NCBI GenBank assembly: GCA_023101725.1
Contig: JALJCO010010476.1
Span: 2,108,001-2,172,000 of the forward strand
DNA from: Atherinomorus stipes
Lineage: Eukaryota > Chordata > Actinopteri > Atheriniformes > Atherinidae
Length of the DNA: 64,000 bases
Reading direction: 5' to 3'
The position numbers and the translations under genes are program-made. Under the pieces are notes generated by a model, which had not been told where the DNA came from, did no database searches, and saw only the letters and a program-made list of their open reading frames with translations. This document shows positions 32 through 3,300 of this stretch, piece by piece. Numbering within the stretch: position 1 is the first letter of the stretch; the number at the start of each line of letters is the position of its first letter.

Positions 32-304
32 ATGTCGAACAGTCTGCTGGCAGACCAGTCCTCAGGGACCAGGAGTGTGTGTGCGAGGGCGGCTTGTGTG
101 AGCATGGCCATCACTGCACAGGCCAGCAGTGTTTCTCTTCTCTGGAGATGGTTAATGGGGCGGCTGTCCAACAGAAGGGCTGCCTGAGGGATGATGAGGA
201 GGGCAGAGCTACCTGCTCTATGCCACCCTCATCGGTCCATGTTATCAAGTGCTGCCAGGGCCATCTGTGTAACATGAATGTCTCTGTGGAAGCTCCGGGG
301 AAAG
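32..304 (+). CDS. acvr1: acvr1 ectodomain exon A (extra, divergent activin-receptor domain)
   Basis: The acceptor is a long pyrimidine tract ending CTTATCAG; the donor is AAAG/GTGACT. The exon starts after the first base of a codon and ends with one base of a codon (phase 1-1). It encodes about 91 residues with the full set of ten cysteines of an Activin_recp three-finger domain, from CVCEG through QQCFSSL, QKGC and KCCQGHLCN. An N-glycosylation site (NVS) follows. It is about 50% identical to exon B over 78 aligned residues. In the middle strand it differs most: QQKGCLRDDEEGRATC stands where B has a more ALK2-like YQKGCFKVYEQSTMTC. No stop codon or frame break is seen, so it looks functional rather than a decayed duplicate. 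Confidence 0.88.
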
Positions 305-3300
305 GTGACTTTGCACACATTTGCACTAGCTGCCATTTATTGTCGGCCTTAAGTCAACAGCGCAGAAGTTCAGTTTGAAGTTATGTGATCAGATTTTCAT
401 CTGAATCTTTCAGACATGAACTCTACCTTTTTACAAGCCATATTTTCTGAATCTCTTCCAGCAGACGAAGTGAAACCCTTGATCAAAGAGGAGCACGAGT
501 GTGTGTGCGAAGGGAGCTCATGTGTGACGGGGAATCGCTGCTTGGGCCACCAGTGTTTCTCATCTCTGACAGTCAGTGCTGGCTCCCTGGTGTACCAGAA
601 AGGCTGCTTTAAGGTCTATGAGCAGAGCACGATGACCTGCAAGACCCCCCCTTCCAGAGACCAGACTGTTGAGTGTTGCCATGGGCACCTGTGCAACATC
701 AACATTACTGTGAAGCTGCCTGTCAGAGGTACGACACAACACTACCCAGAATGCCTCACAAGTGCAGAAACAGACCAAAATTCTCAAAAGTTTCTATCTG
801 TCATTCTGTAGTAATGAATCCTAAATACTGTGTCGATCTGTTGGCTTACGCCACACAAACTTCAGCTTACATTTTACATACTCACAGTAACAAGAACTGT
901 GGGGGTTTGGCTTTGTGAGACTTGGTGGTCCGCTGTTTATAAGCTTTTTGAAACTGGTGCTTTTCTGGAGCCCATGTCGGGAAAGTCTAAACTCATCACA
1001 ATCTCCTGGACATAAATCTTAAGTAATAATGTTCCTCCTCATCTTCACAGACAAAGGAAATATTTGGCTCTATTTGTAATTCTCTAAACCACTATTCTAA
1101 TTCCCAAGAGAGAAGGAGCCCCTATCCTGCCTAAAAGAATAGAAATAAAAGGTTAAGGGGAGGACCAGTCCTCTGTAGTTCCTGCTGTACCCTGGTGGAT
1201 GTTCTTTGAGTTTCTATTATGTCAGAGTTTTATGCAATGGCACAAGAAATGTTAATGTATTTTGAAAACTTTTATTTGTTGTACTGATGTTTGGGATGAC
1301 TTACATTTTCTTTTGAACCTACAGTATTTCCTGATTGAAGCCTTCAGTGCTTTCCTATCTGGACTCTGAATGTATATGGATACAAATCATGGCGTTTGCA
1401 AGTGGAAGCAGAAACTACTCAGTAGCCTCTTAAATTGACAACAGGTGCAAAATAATAGTTTGTATGAGCTGACGGGGATAGTTGATTCTGCATAACCTCA
1501 TTTATGAATAATTGTACACATTTTTTAACAAGGTTCTTTGTTGTAAATATTCTTTCAGGACAAGTAAGAAGAAAAAAAAAAAAAAATTCTTTCAGTTTTT
1601 GACTTTTTTTTTCCCCCACTGAAATTATATAGGTTAAAGAGGAAAATTTCTGATCTACCTATCTTAGTTAAACTGAGTTTACATCATAAAAGCCTGATAC
1701 TTCAGCAGGGTGTTGTTTGCTTTGTTTTCCCTCTCCATTATTCTCCACTGAGACATCTTCACCATCAGTGGTGAAATGATCTGCCACGGCTCTTTTTCTG
1801 TTGGCCTGAGTTACACCTCTGTCTGGTCACGCTTTGCCTAACTCGTGGCACCAAGAAGAGAGAGACTGTGGGCATCTAGAGAAAGTTCTGAATATTATTT
1901 AGTCATGGTCTGCTTCTCCCTCTATCCTCTTGGTGGCTGTGAGAGCTAGTTGACAAGAGCCCAGAGCGTGAGGGCAGAAAGGGGTTGAAGGAGAGAATGG
2001 CATCTGTACATGGAGCTGTTGTCCCTTGCTGTTTCTTTCATTTGTATGTTTTCTTCTACAGTTGGGCTTTATGTAATACTTTTTAATAAATATTCATACC
2101 TCATATTGCTTTTGAGAATTCAATCAAAGTGAAATAAAGTTAGGAGTGAAATTATTTGAGGCTTTTGAGAACTAGTACCAAGATTCAAACCCAGTTTCTC
2201 TCCTTTGCCCTACCCTCTGCACTGCAGAGGTATGAACTAAGGGATTCTTATTACACGGTGTGCACAGGTGGCTTTTTGAACCACCCAAATAAAAAGTCTC
2301 CAACAAGATGCTCTCTAGCTTTTCCACCTACCAGAAAAATCTACACTGATGTTAGGGCTGTGCGATATAATGATATGATATTGCGATATATTTACATGAG
2401 AGAGAGATGACATTTACACATATCATTATATCGCGATATTAGTTGTGCAAATTTTTTTGCTTTATTTTTTTGTAATGAGCTGGCTGCATCTAGACTGACA
2501 AAAAAGGGGTCACCTGATTATTTAATAAGGGTGTGAACGATATTGATACACTGAAATATCGCAATATTTTCATATGCCCATACCACATCCATATTTAAAA
2601 TCGCAGTATCGATCTATTTTACAAACGAAATCTCGTGAGATATTTTGTTACAAAATCTCATAAGATTTCACAAAATACCGCAAGATTTTGTTACAGAACG
2701 ATGAAATCTCGCTGTATTTTGTGAAATCTCATGAGATTTCATAATAAAATATTAATATCTCGCGAGATTTAATTAGTTAAATGGATCGATACCGCGTTTT
2801 TAAATATAGATATGGTATTGGCATGTAAAAATAGCGCTATATTTCAGTGTATCAATATTTTTTTCCCACCCCTATTATTTAAACTGTCTGGAAGACAATC
2901 CTCCCCAAAACTTTTACAAAGAAATCACAAAAATCCAGCCAATTATATTTAATTACTTTGATTTAACAAACATTTCCAGCCAGTGTTTTGTCAGTTACAT
3001 CAGTGCAGTGTAGCAAAACCTTTACGCTAAACATGTTTCAATTCTAAAAAACAGGTGTTTGATATGAAATATAACTTTCAGACAAATAAGGTAAAAATAC
3101 CGTTATATATCGTGTATTGTCATCTAAAATAAATATATCGTGATATGATATTTGGTCTATATGACCCAGCCCTAACTGATGCAAAGCAACATGATGGATC
3201 ACATGATGTATCATTAACAGAAAAGCAGCTGTAAGCACAGTGGCGAAACTCCACATTTGTCTTCTGGTTTCTAAGAGCTGCTTTTTGGTGTCCATATATT

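Follow-up and report, generated by a model that had tools for sequence, protein, structure and literature searches.

The activin receptor gene acvr1 of Atherinomorus stipes carries two tandem exons, A and B, each encoding a ten-cysteine ligand-binding domain, and by identity and tree position these correspond to the middle and inner (membrane-proximal) domains of the three-domain ACVR1 of teleosts. This stacked ectodomain architecture is of an already published kind, since both the cloning of medaka Acvr1 (PMC10501582) and a 2026 survey of receptor ligand-binding domains (LBDs) (PMC13187141) describe a three-domain Acvr1. What is new here, as far as the compared sequences indicate, is that the inner domain has retained Tyr74 of human ALK2 and the middle one has lost it.

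Structure of the two ligand-binding exons

The window, that is, the whole stretch of 64,000 nucleotides that was analysed, includes the following parts of acvr1, with the evidence for each in parentheses.

32..304, + strand: exon A, ligand-binding domain of the middle type, without Tyr74 and Met79 of ALK2 (open frame, PF01064, orthologue identity, tree)
305..464, + strand: intron between A and B, with a length of 157 or 160 nt according to the acceptor used (splice-site listing, orthologue spacing)
465..728, + strand: exon B, membrane-proximal (inner) domain, Tyr74 and Met79 kept; may start at 462 (open frame, PF01064, orthologue identity, tree)
5056..5261, + strand: transmembrane/juxtamembrane exon, taking phase 1 from A or B (gene model)
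8828..8927, + strand: GS-box exon (SGSGSGLPFLVQRTVARQ), with the residue equivalent to human R206 (gene model)
10942..11088, + strand: kinase exon (gene model)
11669..11944, + strand: kinase exon (gene model)
12826..13023, + strand: kinase exon (gene model)
14556..14686, + strand: kinase exon (gene model)
14790..14924, + strand: final kinase exon, stop TGA (gene model)

Exons A and B score 32.3 and 39.1 bits, respectively, against PF01064 (Pfam cut-off 20.9), and both are translated without stops in the frame given by the G of the preceding exon. Each domain is an activin-receptor ectodomain with ten cysteines, whose spacing is the same in A and B at a constant offset of 88 residues, and for both the closest solved chain is that of ACVR1. 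These results bear out the preliminary description of two tandem ten-cysteine exons in phase 1, and the identity of about 50% that it gave for the two domains is 47% when computed (39 of 83 positions). A relaxed cysteine pattern has three matches in the window, namely A, B, and a site in acvr1c (32688-32885), which has one such domain as described earlier, and the same pattern gave 0 matches in 100 resampled windows generated with a first-order Markov model. The tetrapod-type plan with a single ligand-binding domain is not matched, given the two domains in the window. Structure prediction from 30-row alignments gave a mean pLDDT of 43.1 for A and of 48.7 for B, taken as a control, both too low to be informative.

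The transmembrane exon, GS box, and kinase are of the ACVR1 type, and the gene model is open to its stop. A and B together, A alone, and B alone all join these exons in frame, and the resulting frames (577, 489, and 486 codons, respectively, including the stop) are open to the stop ending at 14924, in agreement with what had been proposed. The kinase part is 98% identical to that of P0003, a protein of Symphorus nematophorus annotated as activin receptor type-1-like, and 82% identical to P0102. Downstream of acvr1 lies an inverted repeat (17238-17419) with two 79-nt arms, 94% complementary, and a 24-nt spacer, perhaps a small palindromic transposable element; homopolymers of 78 A (20918-20995) and 24 C (10294-10317) are also found in the window.

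The intron between A and B ends in a tandem acceptor, CAGCAG at 459-464, whose upstream AG puts the start of exon B at 462. Both acceptors preserve the frame. With the start at 462 there is one extra alanine, giving GK-AD-EVKPL, of the same length as GK-VE-EVKPL in P0003, and the last cysteine of A is separated from the first of B by 24 residues, as in P0003; because length and spacing agree with this orthologue, a start at 462 appears at least as likely as one at 465. In the 60 three-domain proteins considered below, this spacing is 24 residues in 30, 23 in 15, and another value in 15. The phase and frame described previously hold, and the coordinate of the start of exon B may have to be moved. 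Variable use of the CAGCAG could also make the sequence between the two domains longer or shorter by one alanine.

Correspondence with the three-domain ACVR1 of teleosts

A homologue search with the extracellular part as query matched 266 proteins, of which 120 were listed; our counts rest on those 120, in a set clustered at 90% identity in which many entries are annotation models. Applied to these 120 proteins, a strict cysteine pattern counts three domains in 60, two in 25, and one in 35, so that the second ectodomain proposed earlier as something to seek in other teleosts was found. The top match among those listed is P0003 (684 aa), with three domains and 87% identity over the 260 searched residues.

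When compared with the 60 three-domain proteins among the 120 listed, A has a mean identity of 0.67 to the middle domain, 0.53 to the inner, and 0.48 to the outer, and B has 0.81 to the inner, with 0.45 and 0.52 to the outer and middle domains. A FastTree phylogeny, built on a sample of 14 three-domain proteins plus two- and one-domain ones, agrees with this orthology: 10 of the 14 sampled middle domains form a group with A (support 0.935), and 10 of the 14 sampled inner domains form one with B (support 0.936), the remaining four in each class being otophysan and placed elsewhere, with several other nodes weak.

Base 1 of the window is already within the intron preceding exon A, and therefore any outer exon would fall outside it. 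In P0003, exon A starts at residue 108, and the 107 residues before it are about what a signal peptide and a single domain would occupy (with B counted from 462). A third, outer ligand-binding exon likely lies just upstream of base 1; A and B are probably two of three such exons, and the main transcript would carry outer, A, and B in series by analogy with medaka. The preliminary description was correct in counting two ectodomains in the window, but many annotated orthologues have a further outer one.

The survey places the duplication of the ACVR1 LBD early in Osteoglossocephalai and describes its triplication as common to Clupeocephala, each LBD of a type I receptor being encoded by one exon; a single ligand-binding domain is not a defining trait of teleost ACVR1 (PMC13187141), and the earlier statement that type I receptors have only one is outdated for teleost acvr1. 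Medaka Acvr1 was cloned and predicted to have three ligand-binding domains, and its Halo-tagged product ran at 130 kDa (PMC10501582). Among the literature matches listed, we found no reports of multi-domain ACVR1 other than these two. The locus studied here shares with these receptors the gene, the tandem domains in one type I receptor, and the use of one exon per domain, and A and B correspond to the middle and inner domains of the annotated orthologues; it differs in that the expected outer domain is beyond the window and that the Atherinomorus stipes locus is described here at the level of genomic sequence. At this level, the tandem-ectodomain receptor of the preliminary description is supported, with annotated full-length orthologues that hold both domains plus the outer one, and with a cloned medaka cDNA.

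The mean pairwise identity within the 60 three-domain proteins decreases from the inner domain (0.784) to the middle (0.653) and the outer (0.590), with 1770 pairs each. This gradient agrees with the published view that, in old duplications, the domains farther from the membrane evolve faster and turn inhibitory. Since the pattern preselects intact domains, we do not count cysteine conservation in the 60 proteins as evidence. The counts of 60 also exclude seven proteins of 668-697 aa that miss the pattern, which we inspected by eye. In P0046, three domains can be recognised, with a longer loop; in P0056 (Denticeps), P0068 (Myxocyprinus), and P0071 (Triplophysa), the middle domain is shortened near the Tyr74-Met79 position, as though it were losing its ligand-facing loop; and in P0051, P0072, and P0073, the outer domain is broken or missing. 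None of the seven has Tyr at the Tyr74 position of its middle domain.

Several other listed proteins deserve mention. P0079 of Phoxinus phoxinus (Cyprinoidei; 592 aa, cluster of 54) is a two-domain ACVR1 with a kinase 93% identical to that of the window; in the tree, its outer domain falls with otophysan outer domains and its inner one with carp P0100, which, like P0101 of Carassius (kinase 93%), is also ACVR1-like. P0078 of the sevengill shark Heptranchias perlo (599 aa, single-sequence cluster) has two near-identical ligand-binding domains, and is either a recent, separate non-teleost duplication of ACVR1 or an assembly or annotation artefact; a duplication of this type is not among the ACVR1 cases given in the accessible part of the survey (PMC13187141).

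Distribution of Tyr74 and Met79 among the domains

Tyr74 and Met79 were placed by means of the motif VYEQGKM, which is present in the solved ACVR1 chain and in which the two residues are five apart, as the numbering requires. Exon B keeps both residues, and exon A has Asp and Ala at those positions. A similar distribution is found in the three-domain orthologues selected by regular expression among the 120 listed proteins. At position 74, Tyr is present in 55 of 60 inner domains and in 0 of 60 outer and 0 of 60 middle domains, the middle domain having Asp in 48 of 60; at position 79, the inner domain has Met in 39 and Leu in 21 of the 60, and the middle domain has Met in none and Ala in 53.

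In human ALK2.R206H, variants of Tyr74 abolish the response to activin A and spare that to BMP6, and in human ALK2 the Met79Ala variant retains both responses (PMC12415261). The loss of Met79 alone therefore argues little, and the lack of Tyr74 predicts that A would be unable to take activin A via its fingertip; from these two residues, the binding of BMP by A is not predictable. Human ACVR1/ALK2 (7yru_A, 9n4k_C) has one domain only, to which B aligns with 105 bits and A with 79.7 bits; of the two, B has retained Tyr74 and Met79 and A has neither. The plan of transmembrane segment, GS box, and kinase is the same.

These observations allow a further, rather doubtful proposal, namely that the middle domain is a long-kept activin-blind module, and that three-domain Acvr1 would be a BMP-biased receptor in which this module shields the activin-capable inner domain or competes with it. 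Medaka Acvr1 raised the reporter with BMP6; in the available text of that report, none of the receptors assayed, human ones included, responded to activin A (PMC10501582), so this assay cannot separate the domains.

Proposed roles of the domains and alternative explanations

Our preferred reading, which we hold with reasonable confidence, is that teleost acvr1 encodes an outer domain (here likely upstream of the window), a middle one (A), and an inner one (B), and that B would bind the ligand and A is predicted to attenuate or filter signalling; by analogy with other multi-domain receptors, this division of roles appears the most likely. The type I interface with BMP would be provided by B; A, predicted to be unable to contact the activin fingertip, may act as a spacer or a weak decoy. 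The models for this role are the attenuating domains of elephant-nose fish Bmpr2a (outer and middle) and of zebrafish Tgfbr2a (outer LBD) (PMC13187141).

Tandem ligand-binding domains in a receptor of the TGF-beta family also occur in the multi-domain forms of BMPR2 (Notopteroidei, Polypteridae) and TGFBR2 (zebrafish, chicken, horse, and others), and in Bmpr2a and a number of TGFBR2, competence resides in the inner domain; however, they are type II receptors, each of their domains extends across two exons, and they arose in independent events (PMC13187141). In chicken TGFBR2, in contrast, both domains bind and ligand capture is raised (PMC13187141), and an outer domain therefore need not be inhibitory.

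This last case bears on the possibility that A and B both bind, one chain capturing more ligand or bridging two. A does retain the cysteines that define the fold, and two-domain TGFBR2, both that of chicken and a synthetic human form, is described as binding more ligand (PMC13187141), but the domains are near-identical in those receptors, whereas A and B are only 47% identical and A lacks both Tyr74 and Met79. The linker between A and B has 23-24 residues, shorter than the 36 that TGFBR2 is predicted to need in order to bind one ligand bivalently (PMC13187141); applying that figure to a type I receptor by analogy, we judged bivalent avidity for one ligand to be improbable. The higher avidity suggested in the preliminary description is a poor fit for A, with Asp and Ala in place of the ALK2 residues, and we consider joint binding by A and B very unlikely. 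Even less credible is the view that one of the exons is an assembly duplicate or a dead copy, for which we found no support, with the 5' part of the gene beyond the window: the frame is open, the splice sites are plausible, and the 47% identity between copies, together with separate orthologues of each copy in other fish records, rules out a duplication artefact, which the preliminary description had named as a possible refutation.

It was also suggested that the exons are used alternatively, with shorter receptors (B only, or A and B without the outer domain) beside the full form and splicing selecting the ectodomain. All three combinations of A and B are open, and of the ten teleost records with a single domain in the list of 120, four look properly built: in P0097 (Chanos) and P0101 (Carassius), both isoform X2, and in P0098 (Conger) and P0099 (Anguilla), a signal-peptide-like start adjoins a domain of the inner type. 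P0062 of Pholidichthys leucotaenia (599 aa, isoform 2-T2) has a signal peptide followed by the middle and inner domains, the outer exon being either skipped or lost. These five records point to skipping or loss of distal exons in some cases, and the TGFBR2 of chicken and horse reportedly undergoes marginal skipping (PMC13187141). However, isoform records are annotation models and not read counts; P0098 is on a different contig from the two-domain Conger protein P0082 and may be a second gene; and the other six one-domain records (P0084, P0087, P0092, P0096, P0100, P0121) look broken or read-through, their start residues resembling intron read-through or a broken start. None of the ten is an A-only form, and zebrafish tgfbr2a is described, in the accessible part of the survey, as lacking alternative splicing (PMC13187141). 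Alternative use is thus the weaker of the two readings first offered, and we regard it as an unlikely but serious alternative.

Implications

The tandem ectodomain of Atherinomorus stipes is an independent sighting that confirms, and does not extend, a known feature of teleosts. The activin A response of FOP-mutant human ALK2 requires Tyr74 (PMC12415261), and this residue persists in the inner domain but not in the middle one, which makes fish Acvr1 a natural test of the separation of BMP and activin by ALK2. If the proposal of an activin-blind middle domain is true, that domain would allow a single protein to keep the two classes of ALK2 ligand apart.
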